64,000 bases of DNA. Source: Gloeomargaritales cyanobacterium VI4D9. Lineage in GTDB: Bacteria; Cyanobacteriota; Cyanobacteriia; Gloeomargaritales; Gloeomargaritaceae. The translations under genes and the position numbers were made by a program. The stretch lies in assembly GCA_927797885.1 (NCBI GenBank), contig OV696605.1, positions 2,703,157 through 2,767,156 on the forward strand, given 5' to 3'. This document shows, piece by piece, positions 12,278 through 23,716 of the stretch. The notes beneath the pieces are model-generated. The model was not told the origin of the DNA and searched no databases. It saw only the letters and a program-made list of their open reading frames with translations. Every line of letters starts with the position of its first letter. Position 1 is the stretch's first letter.

Positions 12278-12350
12278 GGGGCTATAGCTCAGTTGGTAGA
12301 GCACCTCAATGGCATTGAGGGGGTCAGCGGTTCGAGTCCGCTTAGCTCCA
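12278..12350 (+). tRNA. tRNA-Ala (anticodon GGC)
   Basis: A full cloverleaf can be drawn. The acceptor GGGGCTA pairs with TAGCTCC, followed by discriminator A. The D arm is GCTCAGTTGGTAGAGC. The anticodon stem CCTCA/TGAGG encloses the loop ATGGCAT, with anticodon GGC at 12311-12313. The T arm contains GGTTCGAGTCC. CCA is not encoded. The 3' end forms the left attachment site of the integrated element. Confidence 0.95.
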
Positions 12351-12369
12351 TCTTAAACCCATCTCAGAC
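12345..12369. other. Left attachment site (attL)
   Basis: Starts GCTCCATCTTAAACCC, whose first six bases are the tRNA-Ala 3' end. It matches the attR segment at 23 of 25 positions, and weaker similarity (AAGTCCT) extends beyond. Use of a tRNA 3' end is typical for tyrosine recombinases of this type. Confidence 0.8.
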
Positions 12370-12451
12370 CATCTCATTAAGTCCTGAAAGCCCCGCCCAG
12401 AGCCACTTTTAGATTACCCCTTCATCTTGTAAGGTCTCACGGCATCCCAGG

Positions 12452-12474
12452 TTATCCCCTAAAATTAGGGATAA
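12452..12474. promoter_or_regulatory. Palindrome between attL and the integrase gene
   Basis: TTATCCCCTAA is followed by TTAGGGATAA after two bases, an imperfect palindrome 44 bp before the integrase start. Its position fits an integrase or AlpA binding site, or an operator for the int promoter. No direct evidence separates these. Confidence 0.4.
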
Positions 12475-12517
12475 GGTTAGGGGCAGAAAAAATTTTGTAC
12501 TGCGTGGTTATCCCCAG

Positions 12518-13729
12518 ATGGGCAAAGGGCTGACGGATACGGCGATACGGGCGATTAGGGCGGTGGAGAAGGTCACCCGGTTTTATGACACTGGGGGGCT
12601 GTACTTGGAAGTGACCCCAGAGGGCGGGAAGCGGTGGCGCATCAAGTATTACTGGGAGCGCAAAGAGAAGCGGTTATCGTTGGGGACGTACCCGGAGATC
12701 AGCCTAAAGGTGGCACGGGAGCGGCGGGATGAGATTCGCTCTAAAGTGGCGCAGGGGATAGACCCTAGTGCGGAACGGCAAGCCCTCAAGGAAGCGCAAA
12801 TAGCGCAGGAATCCACACTGGAAGTAGTCGCTCGGGAATGGTTCATCAAGCATTCTCCCAAGTGGGCGGCCAGTCATGGGGAAACGGTTTTACGCAGGCT
12901 AGAACGGGACATTTTCCCTTGGCTGGGGGCGCAACCCATTGGGGATATTGATGCCGTGACCCTGTTGCAGACGCTCCGGCGGGTGGAACAGCGGGGCAGT
13001 CTGGAGACCGCCCATCGGGAATTAAATATCTGTAGCCAGGTGTGGAGATATGCGGTGGCAACGGGACGGGCGAAACGGGACATTACCTATGACCTGCGGG
13101 GGGCATTACCGCCAGTGCAAAAACACCATTTCCCCGCCGTGACCGACCCCCAGCAACTAGGACAGATTCTTAAACTGGTCTGGAGCTACTCGGGGTTCCC
13201 AGTGGTGTGTACTGCCCTAAAAATCGCACCGTATGTATTTGTCCGACCGGGGGAATTAAGGACTATGCGATGGGCGGATATTGACTGGTCAGCCCGGGAA
13301 TGGCGGTTTAATCTCAGCAAAACGGGACAGCCCCACATCGTACCGCTGGCGGAACAGGTGGTGGCATTGTTGCAGGAGCTACAGCCCATCACCGGGCGGG
13401 GCGAGTTTGTGTTCCCCAGTGGCCGGGGTGGTGGCCGCCCGATGAGTGATGGCGCAGTTCTGGCGGCACTGCGTACCCTGGGAATCCCCAAAGAAATTAT
13501 GACCGGGCATAGTTGGAGGGCGACCGCTAGAACATTACTCGATGAACACCTCGGGTTCCGGGTGGAACTCATCGAACATCAACTAGGGCATAACGTCAAA
13601 GACCCGTTAGGGAGAGCCTATAACCGCACACAATTTTTACGGGAACGACACAAGATGATGCGGGACTGGGCAGATTATTTAGACCGGCTCAGGTCAGTTA
13701 GGGTTGACCTGGTCAACCCTGACTTTTAG
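12518..13729 (+). CDS. int: Tyrosine-type site-specific integrase (DUF4102/P4 type)
   Basis: Catalyses integration and excision of the island. The 403-residue protein has an N-terminal arm-binding DUF4102-like domain (about 1-90, with LSLGTYPEISLKVARERRDE), a SAM-like core-binding domain (100-190) and a C-terminal catalytic domain. The active-site set is visible: R243 in VRPGELR, K268 in SKTG, H331 and R334 in GHSWR, H358 in HQLGH and the nucleophile Y368 in AYNRTQ. It lies directly next to attL and points into the element, as in P4- and PICI-type islands. The ATG at 12518 has no strong ribosome-binding site. Confidence 0.93.
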   Translation: MGKGLTDTAIRAIRAVEKVTRFYDTGGLYLEVTPEGGKRWRIKYYWERKEKRLSLGTYPEISLKVARERRDEIRSKVAQGIDPSAERQALKEAQIAQESTLEVVAREWFIKHSPKWAASHGETVLRRLERDIFPWLGAQPIGDIDAVTLLQTLRRVEQRGSLETAHRELNICSQVWRYAVATGRAKRDITYDLRGALPPVQKHHFPAVTDPQQLGQILKLVWSYSGFPVVCTALKIAPYVFVRPGELRTMRWADIDWSAREWRFNLSKTGQPHIVPLAEQVVALLQELQPITGRGEFVFPSGRGGGRPMSDGAVLAALRTLGIPKEIMTGHSWRATARTLLDEHLGFRVELIEHQLGHNVKDPLGRAYNRTQFLRERHKMMRDWADYLDRLRSVRVDLVNPDF

Positions 13730-13778
13730 TTGCAGGCAGGCTTTGATGAGACTTAATCAACATATTGGGGGCGAAAAA

Positions 13779-13958
13779 ATGCCGGAGAAACTCTTGAAGA
13801 TTAATGAATTGGTTGAGTACGTTGGGCTGAGCAGAAGTTCAGTCTACCGGTTAGCAAGTTTGAACCGATTTCCCAAACCCGTGCGGATTGGGATTCGTGC
13901 GGTGGCCTGGAAGTCGAGCGATATTAACGCCTGGCTGAGCCGATTGGGGACGGATTAA
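13779..13958 (+). CDS. AlpA-like excisionase/transcriptional regulator
   Basis: A 59-residue protein with a MerR-type winged helix-turn-helix: KINELVEYVGLSRSSVYRL, then a basic FPKPVRIGIRAVAWKSSDIN wing. This is the AlpA family pattern, whose members activate or direct excision in P4-like and PICI elements. The ATG at 13779 follows a GGGGG run; upstream in-frame starts at 13704 and 13746 would overlap or crowd the integrase end and lack family similarity. A GC-rich hairpin follows the stop. Confidence 0.85.
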   Translation: MPEKLLKINELVEYVGLSRSSVYRLASLNRFPKPVRIGIRAVAWKSSDINAWLSRLGTD

Positions 13959-13968
13959 CAAAAAAATT

Positions 13969-13996
13969 GCCCCCCAGGGCGGCGGCTCCGGGGGGC
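13969..13996 (+). terminator. Intergenic hairpin 1 of the island (alpA to primase)
   Basis: GCCCCCC pairs with GGGGGGC around a 14-base loop, followed by GTTTAGTT and then, about 20 bases later, the AGGAG of the primase gene. It resembles six other hairpins in the island that sit between gene stop and next ribosome-binding site, so it may be an attenuator or mRNA stabiliser rather than a strict terminator. Confidence 0.55.
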
Positions 13997-14033
13997 GTTT
14001 AGTTCAAAACAAAAACTCTAGGAGTATCCTACC

Positions 14034-16787
14034 ATGCAACACGCACTTAACGGACAAAATGCAGTACAATTTACCGCATCCAGTCCTAAGAATCCATGCC
14101 CAGTCTGTGGGCGCACTAAAGACGGCGATTGCCGGGTGACGAGTGATAACCGGGTATTTTGCCACAGTTATCAGCAGTACAAACCCGGTGAGACTCTCAG
14201 GGGTGCAGACGGACAAGAATGGGCTTGTGTTGGGCATACCACCGATGGCGCAGGGTGGGGGTTATTCCGAATTCACCAACCACTGGAGCAACGGGAACGG
14301 TGGCAGAAACCGCCCCGCCCAAAGTCGGAAAAAATCTACTATTACCCTGACCGCAACGGGAACCCCCTGGTACGGGTTAAGCGTGTTGACCGGGGAGACG
14401 GGACTAAAGAGTTTTATCAGCAACGGTGGGACGGGCAACAATGGCAACCGGGGTTAGGTGACTTAGACCGCTCCCTTATCCCCGTTTACCGGCATAAGAA
14501 TGTTAGGGCGGCGATTGCCCAGGGGGAACCCATCCTGTGGGTCGAAGGGGAAGCTACCGCCGATCTGCTATGGGAAATAGGACTAGCGACTACCACATCC
14601 ATCGGTGGCAGTGGCGGGTTTACCCGATACGGCAATTACACGCAGGATATAGCCGGTGCCAGCCTGGTTATTTGCCCCGACCGTGACGATAAGGGCTTGC
14701 AGTATGCTGACCAGGTGGCAAAAACTTTTGGGGCGACCCGGTGGCTGTATGCCGGGGATGCTGACCAGTGGAATAAGCCTAGCGATGGTTACGACCTAGC
14801 CGACTGGATCGCCGATCTACGCAACCAAGGTTTAGATAATGCCGCCATTAAAGCCCGGATTCTAGGGGCGATTAGCGACCGGCGGGAAAGCGTTATGTCT
14901 TGTCAGCCGGACGTTTCTGCCGTTTCAAAGCAAGAGGATGATAATTTATCCTTCCTAGAGCAGGCGGTAGATAGCCTGTATTCAGAAGGGCGATATATCA
15001 CACTAAACCAGCGTGACCTTTATCGCTGGGTGGGAACCCATTACGAGCTAACCCCGGACGATCTGGAGTTAGCCCGGATAACCGCCTATTGCCGGGGGCG
15101 CAAATTTAGCCCTAGCGTTATTAAAAACATACTGGAATTGCAGAAACTCGCAACGGGGATTACACAGGAGCAGGTGAACCCGGCGAACCATTACAACTGC
15201 AAAAACGGGGTACTGCGCTGGGAGTGGGACGGGAACACGCTACGGACGGAACTGCTACCCCACAACCCTGACCTTATATTTATTGACCCCCCGGCGGCAA
15301 CCTACAACCCGCAGGCTGATAGCACGGCGTTAAACCGCCTGTTGGAATGCCTAGAGCCGCAACCAAGAGAGATTTTAATTAGGACGTTGGCGTGTTCCCT
15401 AGACTTGCCAGCCATTAGGAAACGCAAAGCCAGAACCCCCAGAACGGTACTGCTCTATGGCACCGGCGCAAACGGGAAGGACGCTATTAGGACAGCGGTA
15501 TTCCGGCTATTTGGGGGACGGGGCTGTACCGCCGTTAGCTTAAGCGACTTCCAAGCCTATGACGCTGGGCGCAAATTCGGGTTAGCCGACCTGGAACACT
15601 CACGGGTCAACTGGCCTAGTGAAACCGTACCCGCCGGGAAATTAGACCGCATCGAGTCGCTAAAGTTGGTAACCACCGGCGACCCTATCAGTATTGAACG
15701 GAAGGGGATTCAGGAACGGCGCATGACCCCCCAGGCGGTGCTGTTATTCAACTGCAATCAGCCACCCAACATGACGGCGGCAACGGAAGCGATCAAGAGC
15801 CGCTACGCCATCATCCCCTTCACCAAGACCTACAAGGCTAACCCCGACCCCGCCAAAGGGGAACTGCTGGCAGACCCCAGGTTTAAGGATGACCCCAACT
15901 TCATTGACCGGGAAATACTCCCCGCACTGCTGAATCTGCTACTCGTAAAACTCCAGGCGGTGGCGACCGAGGGAATAGACTACAGTCCGGTGGCGGATCA
16001 GATTGATGAACTGCGCCGCCGTAGCAGTCACCTGGTGCAGTTCTGCGAAGATACTGGGCTGGTTGAAGACCCGGACGGCATGGTTTCCGTAACCGAACTC
16101 TGGGAGCGACTGGAAGCCTGGTACATACAGGAAAATTACCTGACTATCGAGCAGGGACAGCGGGGCGGCCAAAAGCGGAACTGGGAACACCCAGGCAACG
16201 GTGACCGATGCGTGACTGCCAGCCACCAAGTCCTACAGCGGTTTACCGAACTGTTCCCGAAGGTGCGGCGTAAAACAGACCGGGAGCGCCAGGGGACAGA
16301 CAAAGTGACCACTTACCTACACGGCGTAACCTTCCGTAAGGAAAATTCCGAAGCAAAGCCCAAAAAGAAATTACGGAGACGCTCCGGGGGCAAGCCCAAA
16401 AACATAATCGCAAAAATTCTGACGGGAATTTCGGATCAGGGGTCACCAGGGTCACCATGTACTAACGATAACGCCGCAAACCCCGTCATAGAGTCACAAA
16501 AAAACGGTGACCCTACCCAACACCATAGGGTCACCGGGGAGTCCCCAGGGGTCACTGCAGGGTCACCACCAGCGGCAAACGGTGACCCCTATGCCGGAAG
16601 TGGTGACCCTATGGTGACCCTACCAAGTGGGAAGGGTCACCGCCTGAAAACACCGATGAATACGGGGGAAAATAACCAAAATGCAGTACACGGTGACCCT
16701 GGTGACCCTGATCTCCAAATTCCCACCCAACAAAATGACGAGCATTTTATTCCCGATGATGAGGATGGCAGATATGAGTATTTTTAA
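14034..16787 (+). CDS. Primase-helicase replication protein (zinc finger, TOPRIM-like, SF3 helicase)
   Basis: The element's predicted replication initiator, 917 residues. A zinc-finger-like CPVCG with C22, C25, C33 and C43 opens the protein. A TOPRIM-like region follows, with E171 in ILWVEGEATADLL and CPDRDDKG near 214. From about 300 a D5/P4-type superfamily 3 helicase begins, with Walker A YGTGANGKDA at 475-484. In the Walker A the residue after the lysine is D483 rather than S or T. The last 120 residues are low-complexity and rich in GDP and VT pairs, because the DNA there is an array of GGTGACC iterons. The ATG at 14034 follows AGGAG at good spacing. It corresponds to pri-rep of PICI elements. 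Confidence 0.85.
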   Translation: MQHALNGQNAVQFTASSPKNPCPVCGRTKDGDCRVTSDNRVFCHSYQQYKPGETLRGADGQEWACVGHTTDGAGWGLFRIHQPLEQRERWQKPPRPKSEKIYYYPDRNGNPLVRVKRVDRGDGTKEFYQQRWDGQQWQPGLGDLDRSLIPVYRHKNVRAAIAQGEPILWVEGEATADLLWEIGLATTTSIGGSGGFTRYGNYTQDIAGASLVICPDRDDKGLQYADQVAKTFGATRWLYAGDADQWNKPSDGYDLADWIADLRNQGLDNAAIKARILGAISDRRESVMSCQPDVSAVSKQEDDNLSFLEQAVDSLYSEGRYITLNQRDLYRWVGTHYELTPDDLELARITAYCRGRKFSPSVIKNILELQKLATGITQEQVNPANHYNCKNGVLRWEWDGNTLRTELLPHNPDLIFIDPPAATYNPQADSTALNRLLECLEPQPREILIRTLACSLDLPAIRKRKARTPRTVLLYGTGANGKDAIRTAVFRLFGGRGCTAVSLSDFQAYDAGRKFGLADLEHSRVNWPSETVPAGKLDRIESLKLVTTGDPISIERKGIQERRMTPQAVLLFNCNQPPNMTAATEAIKSRYAIIPFTKTYKANPDPAKGELLADPRFKDDPNFIDREILPALLNLLLVKLQAVATEGIDYSPVADQIDELRRRSSHLVQFCEDTGLVEDPDGMVSVTELWERLEAWYIQENYLTIEQGQRGGQKRNWEHPGNGDRCVTASHQVLQRFTELFPKVRRKTDRERQGTDKVTTYLHGVTFRKENSEAKPKKKLRRRSGGKPKNIIAKILTGISDQGSPGSPCTNDNAANPVIESQKNGDPTQHHRVTGESPGVTAGSPPAANGDPYAGSGDPMVTLPSGKGHRLKTPMNTGENNQNAVHGDPGDPDLQIPTQQNDEHFIPDDEDGRYEYF
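16441..16707. repeat. Cluster of twelve GGTGACC iterons, candidate replication origin
   Basis: Twelve copies of GGTSACC (eleven exact, one GGTCACT) in 267 bp, in both orientations, starting at 16441, 16450, 16506, 16529, 16550, 16561, 16581, 16602, 16613, 16635, 16692 and 16701. Most extend to the 9-mer GGTGACCCT. They lie in the 3' end of the primase-helicase gene. P4-type replicases bind short GGTGAA-type iterons at their origin, so I infer an initiator-binding array. Confidence 0.7.
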
Positions 16788-17214
16788 TGTTCCCCGGGTG
16801 GGCGCAGGATACGGTGGCGGGGTCGTAACCGCCCGGCGCAAAGATACGGCAACGGGGTTGGTGGAGCTACAGGTTAACGGTCAGTGGCTTGTATTTGCTC
16901 CCCAGGTGAAAACGGCAGAAACGTCCGACCAACCTTACAAAGATGAAACCAATTTGAAAACGGCAGAAACGTCCGCTGGGGATGACATAAGCATTAAACC
17001 CGGCGACACAATCCGACTGGTTAACCGCCACTGCTGGGAAGCTCAATTATGGCCGGTCGGCACTCAAGCTACGGTGAAACTTGTCTGGGAAAACGGCACC
17101 CGCCTAGTCATTGAAACTCCCAAGAGCCGGAAGGATGACTATTGCTACACGGTGGATGCGGCTAACTGGCAAGTCGTAGCACCACCGCCAACAGACTTGA
17201 ATACACCGTTTTAG
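16774..17214 (+). CDS. Hypothetical protein of the island
   Basis: 146 residues from the ATG at 16774, which overlaps the end of the primase-helicase gene by 14 bp. An earlier start at 16681 in the same frame would read through the iteron array and is less likely. The protein begins MSIFNVPRVGAGYGG and has two copies of KTAETS at about residues 46-51 and 62-67. A C-terminal beta-rich part contains KPGDTIRLVNRHCWEAQ, resembling a small SH3-like or KOW-like barrel, but I do not recognise a family. Its position directly after the replicase suggests a role in replication or its control. Confidence 0.55.
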   Translation: MSIFNVPRVGAGYGGGVVTARRKDTATGLVELQVNGQWLVFAPQVKTAETSDQPYKDETNLKTAETSAGDDISIKPGDTIRLVNRHCWEAQLWPVGTQATVKLVWENGTRLVIETPKSRKDDYCYTVDAANWQVVAPPPTDLNTPF

Positions 17215-17559
17215 GGGGGGAACCATATCTATGCCCAAGAAGCAAAACAACGGCAAGTAGAATCGGGACGGCTTGAAGGAAAGGAAAAAGAAGGTTCTCC
17301 TAAACTAAAACTTCAGGCTGGGACGCCAGCGTCCCAACTAGACGAAAAGGTTAAGGATGGGTTAAGGGAGCTACGGGAGCAGGAGCGCAAATCTGCTACT
17401 AGGGCGGCGAAGGTGGTCGGTGTGGGGAGTACGGCGGTGAAGCAGGCGAAGGTGAATGAGTTTCAACAGTCCCTGCTGGTGGATCGTTGGCTGGCAACAC
17501 TCGACCAACAAACCAAAACCCCACGACCCAAAGGCCGTAAATTCAAGGTGAAATTCTAA
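17215..17559 (+). pseudogene. 5'-less DNA-binding protein remnant
   Basis: An open frame of 114 codons in the same phase as the preceding gene, directly after its TAG stop. It has no ATG start and no ribosome-binding site at its beginning. The encoded text YAQEAKQRQVESGRLEGKEK, then ERKSATRAAKVVGVGSTAVK, resembles the C-terminal part of phage or plasmid ParB-like/HTH proteins (arginine-rich linker followed by an AAxxxGVGxxxVxxA helix-turn-helix). It is either a truncated gene or, less likely, the readthrough tail of the gene at 16774. Confidence 0.45.
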
Positions 17560-17606
17560 TAAAACCTACCAGTTAGAATCAAAGTGTAATCCGCCCCCAA
17601 ACCCCC

Positions 17607-17768
17607 ATGAAAAATGAAGCCCCGCCCATTCAACAAATAACCCAATTAATCCCACTCACTCGACTTGAATTTCAGCAAAAAATCTTAAGGCAAATTCGTG
17701 ATGAGTTAGCCAAACAGGATGCGCTCGGGGAATTTTCAAAGGAATACCCACCAGATGATAGTCTTTGA
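17607..17768 (+). CDS. Small protein upstream of rusA
   Basis: 53 residues, beginning MKNEAPPIQQITQLIPL and ending EYPPDDSL. It overlaps the rusA start by 14 bp, as small coupled reading frames before rusA often do in phages. The middle is likely helical (FQQKILRQIRDELAKQDALG). There is no ribosome-binding site of note and no recognisable family. Counted as probable because of the tight overlap. Confidence 0.4.
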   Translation: MKNEAPPIQQITQLIPLTRLEFQQKILRQIRDELAKQDALGEFSKEYPPDDSL

Positions 17769-18117
17769 TGTCCCCTACCCAGCGTGTCCAAAACCCCGAC
17801 CCCGGTTTGTACGGAACGGATGGGCGCATCTGCCACCGAAATATGTCCACTGGAAGCGGGAATCAGCACCGCTACTGGTGACGCAGGCGAAAGCGCAAAA
17901 TCTCCCCATCCCCTTAAGCGACCCCTACCGGATTGAAATAACGCTGGTATCTCCCAGTTGCCGGGGCGACATTGACAACTGGTGTGGCAGTGTTTTTGAT
18001 GTGTTGGTGCAGTCAGGAATTTTGGCTGATGATAACCTCTCGGTCTTACCGGAACTGACTGCCAGATGGAAACGGGGGGTTCCCCAATGCACCGTGACCC
18101 TGACCCCCATCGGTTAA
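17755..18117 (+). CDS. rusA: RusA-like Holliday junction resolvase
   Basis: A 120-residue endodeoxyribonuclease predicted to cleave four-way DNA junctions formed during recombination or replication of the element. It opens with the family strand IVFDVPYPACPKPRPRF. The acidic metal site lies in GDIDNW (D72, D74) and in SGILADDNLS (D92, D93), with the basic WKRG near the end. The ATG at 17755 is preferred over 17719, which would add twelve residues without family similarity. The usual K/N after the DxDN motif is replaced by W, a small deviation. Confidence 0.85.
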   Translation: MIVFDVPYPACPKPRPRFVRNGWAHLPPKYVHWKRESAPLLVTQAKAQNLPIPLSDPYRIEITLVSPSCRGDIDNWCGSVFDVLVQSGILADDNLSVLPELTARWKRGVPQCTVTLTPIG

Positions 18118-18152
18118 ACTGAAATTAACCAAACGTTAAGAATAGGTTAAGG

Positions 18153-18608
18153 ATGCTAGACCGGGGACTAGATGATTTACAACGGCGGGCTGCTGACCTG
18201 GTGCTGGACGGCTGGCCGCTCAGTCGGATCAGCAGTTATTTGGAAGTCTCTAAAGTTTCTCTCTGCAAATGGAAAAAGTTACCCGCATGGAAGGAATATC
18301 TCGCAGAACAGACGGGGGAGGGACTAGAAGCTAGGAGCCATCGTGTACGTCGAGTGTGTGACCTTGCCTTAGAGACCATTGAAAGCGCATTAGTTGACCC
18401 CGAAATTGTGCCACTGAAACGGGCGGAACTCGCTATCAAATGGCTAACTTTAATTCGGGAATCTGTGACCCAGGCGGCGGCGGCACCTGCTCCCACCGAA
18501 GGGCGAGTACTGAATCAGGATGTGATCCGTCAGATCAGGGAAAAAGTCTATGGGATTTATGAAGCTGATTCAAAATTACCAAACACCCCCGTAGAAACTA
18601 GCGACTGA
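18153..18608 (+). CDS. Terminase small subunit-like HTH protein
   Basis: 151 residues. The N-terminal helix-turn-helix reads AADLVLDGWPLSRISSYL, then EVSKVSLCKWKKLPAWKEYL, the layout of phBC6A51-type and related TerS DNA-binding domains. A helical oligomerisation-like region (60-115) and a polar tail follow. In phage satellites a private TerS redirects the helper's packaging motor to satellite DNA. No large-subunit ATPase gene follows, as expected for a satellite. A plain HTH regulator is the alternative. Confidence 0.65.
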   Translation: MLDRGLDDLQRRAADLVLDGWPLSRISSYLEVSKVSLCKWKKLPAWKEYLAEQTGEGLEARSHRVRRVCDLALETIESALVDPEIVPLKRAELAIKWLTLIRESVTQAAAAPAPTEGRVLNQDVIRQIREKVYGIYEADSKLPNTPVETSD

Positions 18609-18735
18609 CTACGCAAAAGTTTGAGTACGCAAAATAACCCCCGCTAAAATGCCCTAGAAGGTGCCTGAATTTTGTTGGCTGTAGGATTCATCCTGATGTG
18701 GGATAAGCCGGGATATAGCGTGACTAGATGGGAAA

Positions 18736-18761
18736 CCCCCACCATCAAGGGACGGCGGGGG
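18736..18761. terminator. Hairpin 2 of the island, between convergent gene groups
   Basis: CCCCC (18736-18740) pairs with GGGGG (18757-18761) around a loop that contains a further short pairing. It lies between the plus-strand TerS-like gene and the 3' end of the minus-strand gene group, where a bidirectional terminator is expected. There is no strong T tract. Confidence 0.5.
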
Positions 18762-18769
18762 AATTGTGG

Positions 18770-19096
18770 TTACTGCTGGTGGCGGTTCAGGTAGTGTTCC
18801 AAAACCTGTTTGCCCAGCTTAGAAGCCTCCTCACGCTCACGCTCTAACTCTGCCAAGCGTTCTGGGGAAACCATATCGGCCAGGGGGCGACATTCGGGGT
18901 GAGCGGTCGCACTGGTGGCGGAATGTTCGCGCCGGTGTTCTATCACCTCATGGGCGGCGATCAGCAGATTAGCCATAGCCGCCTGTTGCAGACTATCCCC
19001 CCGTTCGCAAACCAGGGGCGCAACCGCTAGGACATTCTCGACAAACCCCAAACGGTCAGCATCACTGCCCAAAAAATGCCAATCAATTGCAGACAT
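18770..19096 (-). CDS. Hypothetical protein of the island
   Basis: 108 residues from the ATG at 19096, which follows GGAGG at eight bases; an upstream start at 19114 would precede that ribosome-binding site. The protein begins MSAIDWHFLGSDADRLGF. A helical middle (ANLLIAAHEVIEHRREHS) and a charged C-terminal helix (SPERLAELEREREEASKLG) follow. No family is recognised. It is the last gene of the minus-strand group. Confidence 0.6.
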   Translation of the reverse strand: MSAIDWHFLGSDADRLGFVENVLAVAPLVCERGDSLQQAAMANLLIAAHEVIEHRREHSATSATAHPECRPLADMVSPERLAELEREREEASKLGKQVLEHYLNRHQQ

Positions 19097-19131
19097 AAAG
19101 AACCTCCAAAACAACAGTTAACAGGGTAATT

Positions 19132-19154
19132 GGGGCAGTTTAACGCCATACCCC
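19132..19154 (-). terminator. Intergenic hairpin 3 of the island
   Basis: GGGG and CCCC enclose a loop containing GTTTAACG. It lies just past the stop of the gene at 19166-19549 and about 30 bases before the ribosome-binding site of the next gene, matching the other island hairpins. Confidence 0.5.
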
Positions 19155-19165
19155 AGGGCGGCAAA

Positions 19166-19549
19166 TTAACCGAGACTTTCGGACGGCTCCGGCTCCACCA
19201 ATGAAAGAATCTCCATAACCCGGTGGGCAATCTCCGCCGGGACGGTATTCTGCCCAGGCGGTAGCATATCCAAGTAACTGGCAACCCGCCAAATTGAGTC
19301 ACTCCCAAGGGTGGGGTGAAGGTATCTTGCCGCATGACGTTTGAGATAGGGATCGGATAAATCAACCGGGCAATTGTCATTATTGAGGGCTACGGCAACC
19401 GCTAATAATTCCCGGTGCATTGATTCCAAGGTGGGGATAATCAGGTTTTCCACAGTCTCAGGGGCAACGGTGCCACTGTGGAAAATGCCTAGCAGTGATT
19501 GCACCTGGTGGGCGCTTTTTCGAATGCGACTAGCTAAACTCAAATCCAT
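19166..19549 (-). CDS. Hypothetical protein of the island
   Basis: 127 residues starting MDLSLASRIRKSAHQVQSL, preceded by GGAG at suitable spacing. The N-terminal half is amphipathic helix (LASRIRKSAHQVQSLLGIFH, then ENLIIPTLESMHRELLAVAV). The C-terminal half includes DSIWRVASYLDMLPPGQ. It resembles the layout of the gene at 18770 (small helical protein behind a hairpin), but I see no clear homology and no known family. Confidence 0.6.
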   Translation of the reverse strand: MDLSLASRIRKSAHQVQSLLGIFHSGTVAPETVENLIIPTLESMHRELLAVAVALNNDNCPVDLSDPYLKRHAARYLHPTLGSDSIWRVASYLDMLPPGQNTVPAEIAHRVMEILSLVEPEPSESLG

Positions 19550-19583
19550 TGGTAATCTCCAAAATTCAAGGTGTATAAGGAAT

Positions 19584-19608
19584 GGGGGCAGTTTAACGTC
19601 CAGCCCCC
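19584..19608 (-). terminator. Intergenic hairpin 4 of the island
   Basis: GGGGGC (19584-19589) pairs with GCCCCC (19603-19608); the loop holds AGTTTAACGTCCA. It sits between the Rad52-like gene and the gene at 19166-19549 and shares the GTTTAACG loop with hairpin 3. Confidence 0.55.
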
Positions 19609-19619
19609 AGGACGGCTAT

Positions 19620-20036
19620 CTAGCGTTGGTACAGGTACAGCCCTAATCCAAACCGGGCGCAACACCGGCGGAAACATTGGGATTCAGCATTAGCCGCCGT
19701 TTCCCCGTAGCCGCTGGTATCCACCTTCTCAGAGCCGGTACTCTCACGGGTAATAATCCCGTCAGCAGTGGGAATTGATAACGAGCCGGTCATAATCAAT
19801 TCCCCGCCAATTTGCGAGACATTGGTAATCCTGAATTGCCAGCCGGGAGCGTATCTATCCAGCACCAAAACCGCCCGGTGCCAGGGGATATAGGTGATAG
19901 TCCTACCCCCTAACTTTTTGGTTTCTAAAACACTACTGGGGAGCGGTTTAGATAGGGCTTCAATCACTTGGGATAAACTCCATTCCCCCGGGGCGGTGGG
20001 GGCATTTGCAGGCGGTTTAACGGTGGTGTGCGTCAT
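19620..20036 (-). CDS. Rad52-like single-strand annealing protein
   Basis: 138 residues from the ATG at 20036; an in-frame ATG at 20051 contains the ribosome-binding site GGAG of the shorter form. The family signature lies at the C-terminus: GYGETAANAESQCFRRCCA, then RFGLGLYLYQ, matching the conserved AxxDAxKRAxxxFGxGLYLY pattern of Rad52/Rad22-type phage annealing proteins. The middle (WHRAVLVLDRYAPGWQFRI) is the usual strand-forming core. The expected role is annealing of single-stranded DNA during recombination-dependent replication. With RusA the element carries its own recombination pair. Confidence 0.78.
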   Translation of the reverse strand: MTHTTVKPPANAPTAPGEWSLSQVIEALSKPLPSSVLETKKLGGRTITYIPWHRAVLVLDRYAPGWQFRITNVSQIGGELIMTGSLSIPTADGIITRESTGSEKVDTSGYGETAANAESQCFRRCCARFGLGLYLYQR

Positions 20037-20088
20037 GGTTTTAGACTCCATTGTGTAGGGTTTAACGTTGTACAAACAATGCAGACAA

Positions 20089-20116
20089 GCCCCGCCAATC
20101 AAGGGACTAGCGGGGC
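20089..20116 (-). terminator. Intergenic hairpin 5 of the island
   Basis: GCCCCGC (20089-20095) pairs perfectly with GCGGGGC (20110-20116). It lies between the stop of the gene at 20124 and the start of the Rad52-like gene. A TTTAACG stretch follows nearby at 20061. Confidence 0.6.
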
Positions 20117-20123
20117 ATTGCCG

Positions 20124-20312
20124 TTACCAATCGTGTCCCATTTGCTCTAACTCCTCCCAGGTTTCCACACCCCAGGCGGCTAACATTTGTTCACGGTGCA
20201 TATCTTGGTAGTGGCACCATAATTCGTACTCTTCATCAGGGGTTAATTCCTGTTGGCAGTCGGAGCGTTCATCAGCACCGCTATCAAGTAACCCATCCTC
20301 AAATTCAAACAT
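20124..20312 (-). CDS. Small acidic protein of the island
   Basis: 62 residues from the ATG at 20312, preceded by GGAGGAA at eight bases; an ATG at 20327 includes that ribosome-binding site and is therefore rejected. The protein, MFEFEDGLLDSGADE and onward, is strongly acidic, with TPDEEYELWCHYQDMH and WEELEQMGHDW at the end. Small acidic phage proteins often mimic DNA or bind host enzymes, but nothing specific is shown here. Confidence 0.5.
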   Translation of the reverse strand: MFEFEDGLLDSGADERSDCQQELTPDEEYELWCHYQDMHREQMLAAWGVETWEELEQMGHDW

Positions 20313-20343
20313 GGCTAATTCCTCCATTGGTGATAAGTGAATT

Positions 20344-20367
20344 GCCCCCGGCGGTAGTGCCAGGGGC
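20344..20367 (-). terminator. Intergenic hairpin 6 of the island
   Basis: GCCCCC (20344-20349) pairs with GGGGC (20363-20367) around an inner palindrome. It lies between the gene at 20376 and the acidic small gene. Same position and form as the other island hairpins. Confidence 0.5.
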
Positions 20368-20375
20368 GGTGTACG

Positions 20376-20771
20376 TTAGCGGTTGCGATATGCCAGTTGC
20401 GTAAGTTCGTGACCGGCAATATCATCACCGTTATCCCACCGGATTAAGCCCTCAATAAACTCAAGCGGCGGCCGGTGCCACTTGATCTCGTAGGCATATT
20501 CGGTTAACCGCTCACTTTTGCGGGGGCGGGTGATGCCTTCCCCGTCAAATTGCCCGTTAACCTGCTCCGGGTAGGACTTCCATTTCCAATCCGGGCGCCG
20601 CTTCAAAACGTGGCTGTAGAATTTCTCAGCCTTTTCCTTGCAGTCAAACCCGATATAGGCGATGGACTTCCGCCGCTCAATATCCTCAATGGAACCGATG
20701 CGGGGCGACCACCGCACCCAGGACATGGTGGAACTGATAGACCGCACTCTAGCGTGTAGCTTGGTTTTCAT
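20376..20771 (-). CDS. Hypothetical basic protein of the island
   Basis: 131 residues beginning MKTKLHARVRSISSTMSW, preceded by AGGAG. It is basic, with WVRWSPRIGSIEDIERRKSI, then FYSHVLKRRPDWKWKSYPEQ in the middle and a polar end. No known family is recognised; the alternating basic and aromatic residues would fit nucleic-acid binding. It is the first gene of the five-gene minus-strand group and faces the RHH-like regulator gene divergently, so its promoter should lie in 20772-20950. Confidence 0.55.
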   Translation of the reverse strand: MKTKLHARVRSISSTMSWVRWSPRIGSIEDIERRKSIAYIGFDCKEKAEKFYSHVLKRRPDWKWKSYPEQVNGQFDGEGITRPRKSERLTEYAYEIKWHRPPLEFIEGLIRWDNGDDIAGHELTQLAYRNR

Positions 20772-20802
20772 GGCAAACTCCTATTAGTGATTGTTGAATT
20801 TT

Positions 20803-20827
20803 GCCCCTGCTCTAACCCGGCGGGGGC
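20803..20827 (-). terminator. Hairpin 7 of the island (leader of the minus-strand group)
   Basis: GCCCC (20803-20807) pairs with GGGGGC (20822-20827). It lies upstream of the first gene of the group, 25-30 bases before its ribosome-binding site, so it would be in the 5' leader and not after a gene. Confidence 0.45.
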
Positions 20828-20948
20828 GTTTTGTTGGGGAATGGAAGGTCTCATCCTTGGAGTAACACCTATGTCACCTCTGGGACGGTTTCTAGCCTTG
20901 CCGCTGGCTTATTTAATTCCCTTCCATATCTTTAATATAAACCATTTC

Positions 20949-21047
20949 ACACGAGTTGACAAGTGTAAATAGGGTATTTTGGTTTAGTATTTCTTATCGG
21001 TTGACAAGTGTGGTGATAAGATATACTTAACACGAGTTGACAGGAGT
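20949..21047 (+). promoter_or_regulatory. Triple operator/promoter repeat before the RHH-like gene
   Basis: Three copies of a GTTGACA-centred repeat: ACACGAGTTGACAAGTGT at 20949-20966 (imperfect palindrome with ACAC/GTGT ends), TTGACAAGTGTG at 21001-21012, and ACACGAGTTGACAGGAGT at 21030-21047. Each contains a TTGACA -35-like box; the middle one is followed after 17 bases by TACTTA. The third overlaps the ribosome-binding site. This layout fits autoregulation by the downstream protein. Confidence 0.6.
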
Positions 21048-21054
21048 GATGCCC

Positions 21055-21399
21055 ATGAGTGAGCGACCACAGAATAGACACCTAAAGCCATTCAAGCCCA
21101 AGGGTGACCAGCCCATGAGTGGCAGGCTATTTGTACGAGTGACCAGCGATATAGAGCAGTTGGTTAAGTCTTTGCCCGATAGTCCCGCATGGCTCCGGCG
21201 GGTAATCACTGAAGCGGCTAGGCGGGAACTGCTGGGGGAAAACGCATCTGCGCCCCCCCAGTTAACAGACAATTTGCAGGCGGAACCAGACCGGGCGGAA
21301 CTGGTGGAGCTACTGGACACTGCGCTGGGGATGACCAAGGCCAAAGACATCAAGCCCCTGCTAGAGAAAATCAAGGGCTTGCTGACCCAAGACCGCTAA
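21055..21399 (+). CDS. Ribbon-helix-helix-like regulator of the island
   Basis: 114 residues from the ATG at 21055, eight bases after AGGAG; the ATG at 21049 is too close to it. A strand-helix-helix pattern is visible: GRLFVRVTSDIEQLVKSLPD, then WLRRVITEAARRELLG, resembling RHH DNA-binding proteins. A helical C-terminal tail with ELVELLDTALG and IKPLLEKIKGLL may be a dimerisation or tetramerisation part. Its promoter carries three related repeats, so autoregulation and control of the divergent minus-strand group is likely. It is the last gene before attR. Confidence 0.6.
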   Translation: MSERPQNRHLKPFKPKGDQPMSGRLFVRVTSDIEQLVKSLPDSPAWLRRVITEAARRELLGENASAPPQLTDNLQAEPDRAELVELLDTALGMTKAKDIKPLLEKIKGLLTQDR

Positions 21400-21409
21400 A
21401 AAAGTCTCA

Positions 21410-21430
21410 CCCCATCCAACAAAAATGGGG
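21410..21430 (+). terminator. Putative terminator after the RHH-like gene
   Basis: CCCCAT (21410-21415) pairs with ATGGGG (21425-21430) around a nine-base loop, followed by AGCATTTT. It lies 10 bp past the stop codon and would insulate the island from host genes. Confidence 0.5.
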
Positions 21431-21514
21431 AGCATTTTGGGGGCACACAAAAATTAGTACAATCCCAAAAACCCTGCTATTACGGCATTACCCGGAACTG
21501 TTGGATGGAGCTCG

Positions 21515-21539
21515 GCTCCATCTTAAACTCATCTCGGAC
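21515..21539. other. Right attachment site (attR)
   Basis: Starts GCTCCATCTTAAACTC and matches attL at 23 of 25 positions. No intact tRNA is present on this side. Beyond it lie miniature-repeat fragments. Confidence 0.8.
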
Positions 21540-21583
21540 GGTTTCACAAAGTCCTACGATGCCTGCTTGCACAATCTCAAATT

Positions 21584-21834
21584 GGGCACCTCTATTTATT
21601 GATTCTTGTACCTATAGTCGTTCCGTTTTAGAATGCGACGCTTTTTAGGTATTTGCAATCGCTCTATTCCTTTCCAGGAGAGGGTTTGTAGGTGAAGGCG
21701 AACGTTGCAAACTTGTTTGAAATGACTATATTTGGTGATAAGCAGGACTTATACCAAACCTGACAAGGGTTTCAATCCCTTTGGCGAGAAGAAAGCGTAT
21801 CATTCTATACAATTCCAACCACAAATCCAGGAGC
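21584..21834. repeat. Repeat-rich gap with family G copy 2
   Basis: The stretch between attR and the NurA-domain gene has no gene. It holds a lone IS5-type terminus GGGCACCTCTATTTATTGAT at 21584 and then, at about 21729-21834, a copy of family G with TTTGGTGATAAGCAGGACTT and ACCTGACAAGGGTTTCAATC. The latter matches the element inserted in the transposase gene at 36743-36864. The terminal repeats of this copy are degenerate. Confidence 0.6.
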
Positions 21835-23027: not shown

Positions 23028-23167
23028 CGGTCATCCAGGATTTTTCAACTATTTTCACCTATGATATGGCTTGTGAGCAAAAACATTTACGCTTAGGGAG
23101 TCAAGGGTGCCAGGGCGTCCTCCCGTTGGCATTGTTAATTGGTGCGATGAAATTTACTATTAAGCAT

Positions 23168-23716
23168 CCAGAAGTGTTGAATCTTAAGATTTTGAGGGTT
23201 TGTGCCAAAATGTGCATCTCGCCTCATGATACAAAGCATTGTCATTTAGGAGCTACATTCTCATTTATAGCAATCCTACTTGATTTTCAAACAAAAATTT
23301 TTCAGAACCAAATGCGGGGGCGGTGCCCCTGCGACCCCCTGTTCCATTCTCATTTAGGATTGCTATATAACCAAAAATTTTCTCACTAAGGATTTTGCCT
23401 GACTTGAATTTATGAACTTTTGTTGCAGAGTCCAACACTACTGTTAAGCATCAACCTGCTGGTGACCTTAGGGCACCTCTATTCATTGGCACCACTGGAA
23501 GGTTATCTCCTTGGAATACCCATATTATTGAGAACCACAGACAGCGGCTACACCCCTAGAATTTATATTTAGAGATACCCCTTAGTACCAGTATAGCAAT
23601 CCTACTTGATTAACGTTAGCCTGCGTGCCCTAGGCATACAAAAATTCCCCAGAACTAAGTACGGGGGCAATCTGCCTGAAACCCCTGTGCTTCTGAACTC
23701 AGTTAGGATTGCTGTA
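23168..23716. repeat. Intergenic repeat cluster (families F, C, A, C)
   Basis: The gap from 23028 to 23939 has no credible gene. It holds, in order, a lone family F end CCAGAAGTGTTGAATCTTAA at 23168, a family C copy at 23276-23366 bounded by TATAGCAATCCTA and TTTAGGATTGCTATA, a family A copy at 23471-23580, and a second, degenerate family C copy at 23592-23716 (TATAGCAATCCTACTTGAT to AGTTAGGATTGCTGTA). Nothing else is recognised up to the flavoprotein start. Confidence 0.7.

Follow-up and report, generated by a model that had tools for sequence, protein, structure and literature searches.

The 64,000-nucleotide stretch of DNA analysed here, referred to as the window, corresponds to positions 2703157-2767156 of the 3.16-Mb genome G000, assembled as one contig. 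The host belongs to Gloeomargarita, cyanobacteria regarded as the closest to plastids. Downstream of a tRNA-Ala(GGC) gene (12278-12350, + strand), the window carries an integrated island that spans 12340-21521 and measures 9.2 kb from core to core. Its genes encode, in order, an integrase, AlpA, a DUF5906 primase-helicase, small proteins, RusA and a protein resembling the small subunit of phage terminases (TerS); these are followed on the opposite strand by a set comprising m1, m2, Sak, m4 and m5, and finally by a small regulator-like gene. A first-pass annotation of the window had placed a satellite of a cyanophage at this tRNA gene. The island itself is real: the tRNA, which was the sole match of an Rfam scan and constitutes the integration target, a 46-nt repeat and the genes for integrase, AlpA, primase-helicase and RusA were all confirmed.

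The 3' end of the tRNA gene forms the left core, attL, of the tRNA-Ala type (GCTTAGCTCCAT, 12340-12351, +). Next to it lies the gene of a 403-aa P4-type tyrosine integrase (12518-13729, +), in which the Pfam domains Arm-DNA-bind_3, Phage_int_M and Phage_integrase were each found above their own cut-offs. The AlpA-type excisionase/regulator (13779-13958, +; E = 5.5e-17), the primase-helicase (14034-16787, +; DUF5906 E = 7.6e-11, best PHROG family a primase with E = 1.1e-33) and the RusA Holliday-junction resolvase (17755-18117, +; E = 4.7e-9) were likewise correctly named at first pass. Scanning 15 island frames against Pfam and PHROG revealed no structural (capsid, portal, tail) or large-terminase (TerL) gene, as had been noted before, no lysis gene, and no match to a relaxase, ParA, ParB or ParM. 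A portal match (E = 0.032) was read as chance; it falls in a 111-codon open frame without a usual start codon (17224-17559), perhaps a gene remnant or frameshift product, whose protein is 100% identical in the sister copy of the island at ssrA.

Two further assignments of the first-pass annotation stand in part. The TerS-like protein (18153-18608, +) matches Pfam Terminase_5 exactly at the cut-off (20.3 bits) and a PHROG terminase small subunit family with E = 0.0011, and its orthologue in G003, a genome of the same genus, matches two PHROG TerS families better (E = 7.8e-8 and 8.5e-7). The AlphaFold2 (AF2) model, of low confidence (mean pLDDT 69), consists of an N-terminal helix-turn-helix (HTH), two long helices and a short C-terminal helix; the best Foldseek match is the phage protein phBC6A51 (2ao9, E = 0.056), with the Sf6 TerS at rank 14 (E = 1.5). 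Support for TerS identity is moderate. The protein taken for Rad52-like, a Sak/Rad52-like single-strand annealing protein (19620-20051, -), scores below the cut-off of Pfam SSAP_Sak (E = 5e-4). Human RAD52 provides its top two fold matches (E = 0.007 and 0.008), obtained with a model of low confidence (mean pLDDT 63). Among its plasmid relatives, those with 48-53% identity are annotated as DUF1071 or hypothetical and those with 34% as Rad52/Rad22. Viral contigs gave two loci with 44% identity to Sak, and the scan of genome contigs no relative.

The primase gene carries a candidate replication origin. The word GGTGACCC occurs in 11 exact copies on both strands, all within a 269-bp segment of this gene (16440-16708) and none elsewhere in the island; the window as a whole contains 16 copies compared to 3.9 expected, a number reached in 0 of 100 shuffles. 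To see how general such iterons are, 16 primase genes were surveyed, 4 from Gloeomargarita and 12 from plasmids, the latter drawn from 20 of 54 matching records. Of these, 11 genes (4/4 from Gloeomargarita and 7/12 from plasmids) contain one exact 8-mer 5-15 times in a 400-bp segment whose midpoint falls at 0.85-0.93 of the gene length; the first 65% of these genes contained 2-4 copies, and 40 shuffles of each reached at most 3-4. Eight different words are involved. As one is common to three Nostocales plasmids and another to two G000 islands, the cases are not all independent.

The island is one of several related, modular elements of Gloeomargarita, integrative and satellite-like in character. 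Five elements carrying a TerS-like gene were found: at tRNA-Ala, ssrA (L019) and tRNA-Gly(CCC) (L020) in G000, at tRNA-Arg in the compared genome G001 (L021) and at ssrA in G003 (L022, where the contig stops shortly past TerS). The TerS-like gene lies 3' of a RusA gene in all five, including two that have other integrases and replication genes. One of these, the tRNA-Gly island (about 8.2 kb), possesses the same cassette from rusA to the regulator-like gene except for a match to m2, and its TerS is broken by about 107 nt with a frame change. The other, the tRNA-Arg island, has a different integrase and primase, a RusA recognised by Pfam, and TerS together with a partial second copy of it. No structural gene was recognised in the part of the sibling proteins that was scanned, so close homologues of the island's genes are not always found in full prophages. 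The tRNA-Gly island also encodes a phage-type protein (L020:7865-8116) matching a PHROG nucleotide kinase (E = 1.2e-26).

A mosaic emerges when the island copies at tRNA-Ala and ssrA are compared. They show zero mismatches in the aligned columns of 12345-16237 and again in 16733-17482, 18947-20025 and 20515-21431; in between, identity falls to 42-74% across 16238-16732, the primase tail with its iterons, and to 85% (379/447) in 17633-18082. In the latter region, the ssrA copy has the rusA allele of the tRNA-Gly island and is identical to that island at 447/447 positions. In the former, its iterons are mostly of another type, AGGCTTCCA- and AGGGTTCCA-type words being found together with 5 copies of GGTGACCC. 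We read the mosaic as the probable outcome of recent exchange among the three resident islands, possibly driven by Sak and RusA, with the diverged primase tail and its iterons moving as a single unit that would determine replication specificity.

The integrases encoded at tRNA-Ala and ssrA in G000 are identical over 403/403 residues. A tree of 44 rows was built from 42 of 51 loci plus two further sequences, L120 (11 stops) and the partial L147-L150, L152 and L154-L156 being left out. The window integrase falls in a 7-row clade (support 89/94, not starred, with a starred 6-row clade inside) from hosts in Cyanobacteriota, Pseudomonadota and Bdellovibrionota, in which the only sites are ssrA (4) and tRNA-Ala (3); the RNA genes listed all end in CTCCA or CTCCACCA. 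Compared with one another, the labels for tmRNA and tRNA-Ala are intermixed in the tree without excess clustering (187 and 192 of 500 shuffles were as low). Given the identical protein at both G000 sites and a clade restricted to these two targets, the data point to one integrase serving both ssrA and tRNA-Ala. Prophages of other bacteria are known to use ssrA; no prophage was seen at tRNA-Ala, ssrA or the other island sites in the loci read. We are highly confident of the family itself, of the use of two sites, of the mosaic and of the array of iterons.

The right end of the island differs from what was first described. The direct repeat at both ends exists (46 nt, imperfect, 80% identical, 12340-12385 and 21510-21555) but does not represent one attL/attR pair: the right core, GCTCGGCTCCAT (21510-21521, +), is of the ssrA type and belongs to the sister island. 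In the ssrA copy, the left core is GCTCGGCTCCAT and the right core GCTTAGCTCCAT, the latter followed by AGACATTTCAGCC; with the right ends exchanged back, the two cores of either island would agree perfectly over 12 nt. In genome G002, where the stretches around tRNA-Ala and ssrA match no island protein, tRNA-Ala is followed by TAGCTCCATAGACATTTCAGCC. Within G000, a single match to this flank starts at the tRNA end; 116 nt long with 88% identity, it is found where the ssrA island ends on the right. Each island thus carries the right core of the other; later, shorter parts of the flank match other places in G000 too. Beyond the right core, 21522-21555 (+) resembles the left end of the island itself and may be the remnant of another element that once lay there in tandem.

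The right ends seem to have been swapped by recombination between the islands or by misassembly. Since the two islands point in opposite directions, a recombination event between the two would invert a segment of about 1.45 Mb. We consider this inversion of G000 to be probably real. The less probable explanation is an error of assembly across the 3.9-kb tract shared by the two islands, which exceeds short-read length and has zero mismatches in aligned columns; the swap in G000 rests on one assembly, the method of which is not known. What speaks against such an error is that the same kind of inverted exchange appears in G001, which belongs to another species, and involves two other islands, at tRNA-Ala and tRNA-Arg. 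In that genome, the tRNA-Arg island has at its end an inverted right core of the tRNA-Ala type. Conversely, some 11 kb downstream of tRNA-Ala, and oriented like the island at that gene, there is a 53-nt copy of the 3' half of tRNA-Arg (4 mismatches), in which ARAGORN finds no tRNA gene. Together these suggest a second case of right-end exchange. The readable parts of these G001 islands share one inverted 382-nt stretch (73%) besides the end repeats and matches below 30 nt, part of each being N. Genes flanking the islands were found at scattered places in G002 by long-range synteny comparison; a 121-bp match between the right flank of the window and the sequence downstream of ssrA in G002 was dropped as evidence of synteny, being a many-copy interspersed repeat.

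We lean slightly towards a phage satellite built on a plasmid-type replicon as the identity of the island. The interpretation of a cyanophage satellite given at first pass is borne out by a compact tRNA-integrated element with integrase, AlpA, primase and a TerS-like gene and without a structural gene recognised there or in the relatives scanned; it is weakened by a plasmid-like primase and Sak, a weak TerS, the lack of a convincing helper and a misread right boundary. AlpA, integrase, RusA and TerS-type profiles argue for a satellite, as do the weak structural similarities to phBC6A51 and Sf6 TerS and a relative of the TerS-like protein that lies 5.6 kb from a large terminase in genome G331. 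In G331, a region near tRNA-Phe (L103:15187 to L098:11900) encodes a serine recombinase (Pfam Resolvase), a DUF3854 primase, a TerS-like protein and a TerL; the few of its proteins that were scanned included neither a capsid nor a portal, and this is perhaps another satellite-like element.

The island resembles the phage-inducible chromosomal islands (PICIs) of Gram-negative bacteria, such as EcCICFT073. As far as the excerpts of the source go, these combine int, AlpA, a primase module, an optional TerS and a chromosomal att site never used by prophages with the absence of structural genes, typically in 12-15 kb, and undergo phage-dependent induction and packaging; their genes are transcribed rightward, and their origin lies immediately 3' of the initiation gene with two sets of iterons flanking an AT-rich stretch (PMC6092414). 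Integrase, replication module, a TerS-like gene and a presumed master regulator, AlpA, are all present here, and structural or lytic genes were not recognised in the island or in the scanned part of its siblings. In contrast to PICIs, the island is smaller, the iterons found lie within the primase gene, an opposite-strand set includes Sak, and the primase is closest to those of plasmids. P4 has iterons, too, and encodes Sid, Psu and Delta for capsid-size control and helper exploitation. P4-like satellites share with the island the P4-type integrase, an AlpA/Vis-like regulator and a large primase-helicase with iterons; unlike them, the island has TerS-like, RusA and Sak proteins, and the names Sid, Psu and Delta do not occur among its Pfam and PHROG matches, distant versions being possible. 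Tycheposons are tRNA-integrated satellites of marine picocyanobacteria, alike by general description and from a different lineage; they are named as proposed satellites in the portion available of PMC11389934. No satellite of Gloeomargarita was described among the titles and abstract openings found, which cover the literature in part.

According to the favoured reading, AlpA would promote excision and expression, and the excised circle would use its own primase to replicate from the iterons inside that gene. As the DNA replicates, it would be processed and recombined by RusA and Sak, and this would account for both the mosaic and the swapped ends; the TerS-like protein would mark the DNA for packaging by the large terminase and capsid of a helper phage. 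Two near-identical islands may be able to co-reside since the piece conferring replication specificity, the primase tail with its iterons, has been exchanged. A more far-reaching proposal, which we regard as doubtful, is that of a new satellite lineage on a plasmid replicon whose integrase uses ssrA and tRNA-Ala interchangeably, whose co-resident copies escape conflict in replication by swapping the primase-tail-iteron cassette, and whose islands recombine with one another, possibly with the aid of their own Sak and RusA, and so invert the host chromosome time and again.

Several observations weigh against a satellite and, for the most part, favour an integrative plasmid: a DUF5906 replicon that acquired a P4-type integrase, resides in the chromosome and is never packaged. 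In that case, the TerS-like HTH protein would bind DNA in replication, copy-number control or regulation, and the element would spread by uptake or with a non-phage carrier. The primase is closest to cyanobacterial plasmid proteins, with matches in 54 plasmid records (the 20 of them listed are all cyanobacterial with 32-43% identity); Sak, too, has its closest relatives on plasmids (22 records, each with a cyanobacterial name, and identities of up to 53%), and ParA or ParM was seen in the stretch inspected of 6 of 14 such records opened. The intragenic iterons of 7/12 plasmid primases point in the same direction, and are found in Nostoc p057_O and Stanieria pSTA7437.03 in the 3' part of the primase-helicase gene as in the island; these plasmids differ from it by annotated par genes, a larger size (16 and 68 kb) and the lack of an AlpA-RusA-TerS set in the annotation seen. 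Relatives of the TerS-like HTH also lie beside primase-size genes and tyrosine integrases, with no TerL recognised by eye, on contigs of 9 and 10 kb (G110:C85 and G350:C7). The TerS-like protein gave a single match (residues 6-61, E = 0.01) among 50,697 phage records, none in plasmids and none confirmed in viral contigs, and outside the genus weak matches in 9 of 381 genomes of the class (best 41.9 bits); neither structure model had a Foldseek match at E <= 0.001. Five of the 16 primase genes (L158, L160, L161, L162 and L164) are without an array, reaching at most 4 copies. No literature on DUF5906 in cyanobacteria was found in a search of partial coverage. Against a plasmid stand the phage or satellite features (AlpA, integrase, RusA, TerS-type profile), the lack of a recognised partition gene or relaxase, and the constraint on terS (dN/dS, the ratio of nonsynonymous to synonymous substitution rates, of 0.12 and 0.18). 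We rate an integrative plasmid, the main rival reading, as rather unlikely.

Neither has a helper been convincingly found. Searching seven genomes for phrog_2 (terminase large subunit), PF05065 (HK97 capsid) and PF04233 (Mu F) revealed no convincing helper gene in G000. phrog_2 matched in 5/7 genomes (18.6-22.9 bits); 5/7 of the matches lie in 668-725 aa frames recurring in five species and were read as a host ATPase, and the remaining two cross stop codons. PF05065 was matched in 0/7 genomes and PF04233 only in G001. Genomes with hitchers and no possible helper are noted in the consulted part of PMC11389934, so a genome without a resident helper may still harbour a satellite. The Mu F-like head-gene fragments of G001, which by our reading include G-like ones, form two sets, one immediately beyond the right boundary of the tRNA-Arg island (L021:2886-4846) and one at G001:C1:798587-801906, with no intact prophage seen in the stretches read. 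They could suggest that the island is what remains of a temperate prophage after loss of the structural genes. This is very unlikely: the named genes are intact frames, dN/dS of terS, sak (0.20 and 0.32), rusA, m5 and int is 0.12-0.32 where computable (terS and rusA are saturated against G003), the compact content is common to five elements in three species, and G000 lacks a Mu F match. In viral contigs, the integrase found two loci with 23-26% identity and the primase nothing confirmed.

If true, satellites with a plasmid-type replicon would show hitchhikers arising from autonomous elements. The two near-identical islands offer a natural experiment on incompatibility and on integrase recognition, the same 403-aa protein being found at ssrA and tRNA-Ala. 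The iteron array within the primase gene is a testable origin for a cyanobacterial plasmid family, useful for vectors, and recombination between resident islands might be one way in which Gloeomargarita genomes become rearranged.

The remaining island genes are small and have no assigned function. They comprise 16774-17214 (+), weakly similar to a G003 frame, and, on the - strand, m1 (18770-19096), m2 (19166-19549), m4 (20124-20327) and m5 (20376-20771; dN/dS 0.24 against the tRNA-Gly sibling); PADLOC gave no match for 10 island frames, a set other than integrase, AlpA, RusA, TerS and Sak. The last gene (21055-21399, +; dN/dS 0.69), labelled at first pass as a ribbon-helix-helix regulator, matched nothing in Pfam or PHROG at E values of up to 0.1 and is kept as a small regulator-like protein. 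Upstream of it, three 21-nt repeats with TTGACA (20946-21047, +) are candidate operators, present in the ssrA copy and not found in the tRNA-Gly and tRNA-Arg islands. Outside the island, interspersed MITE-like (miniature inverted-repeat transposable element) repeats of about 100-120 bp lie at 21613-21733 and about 23165-23370, matching at least dozens of sites in G000 and G002, as well as further sites in G001.

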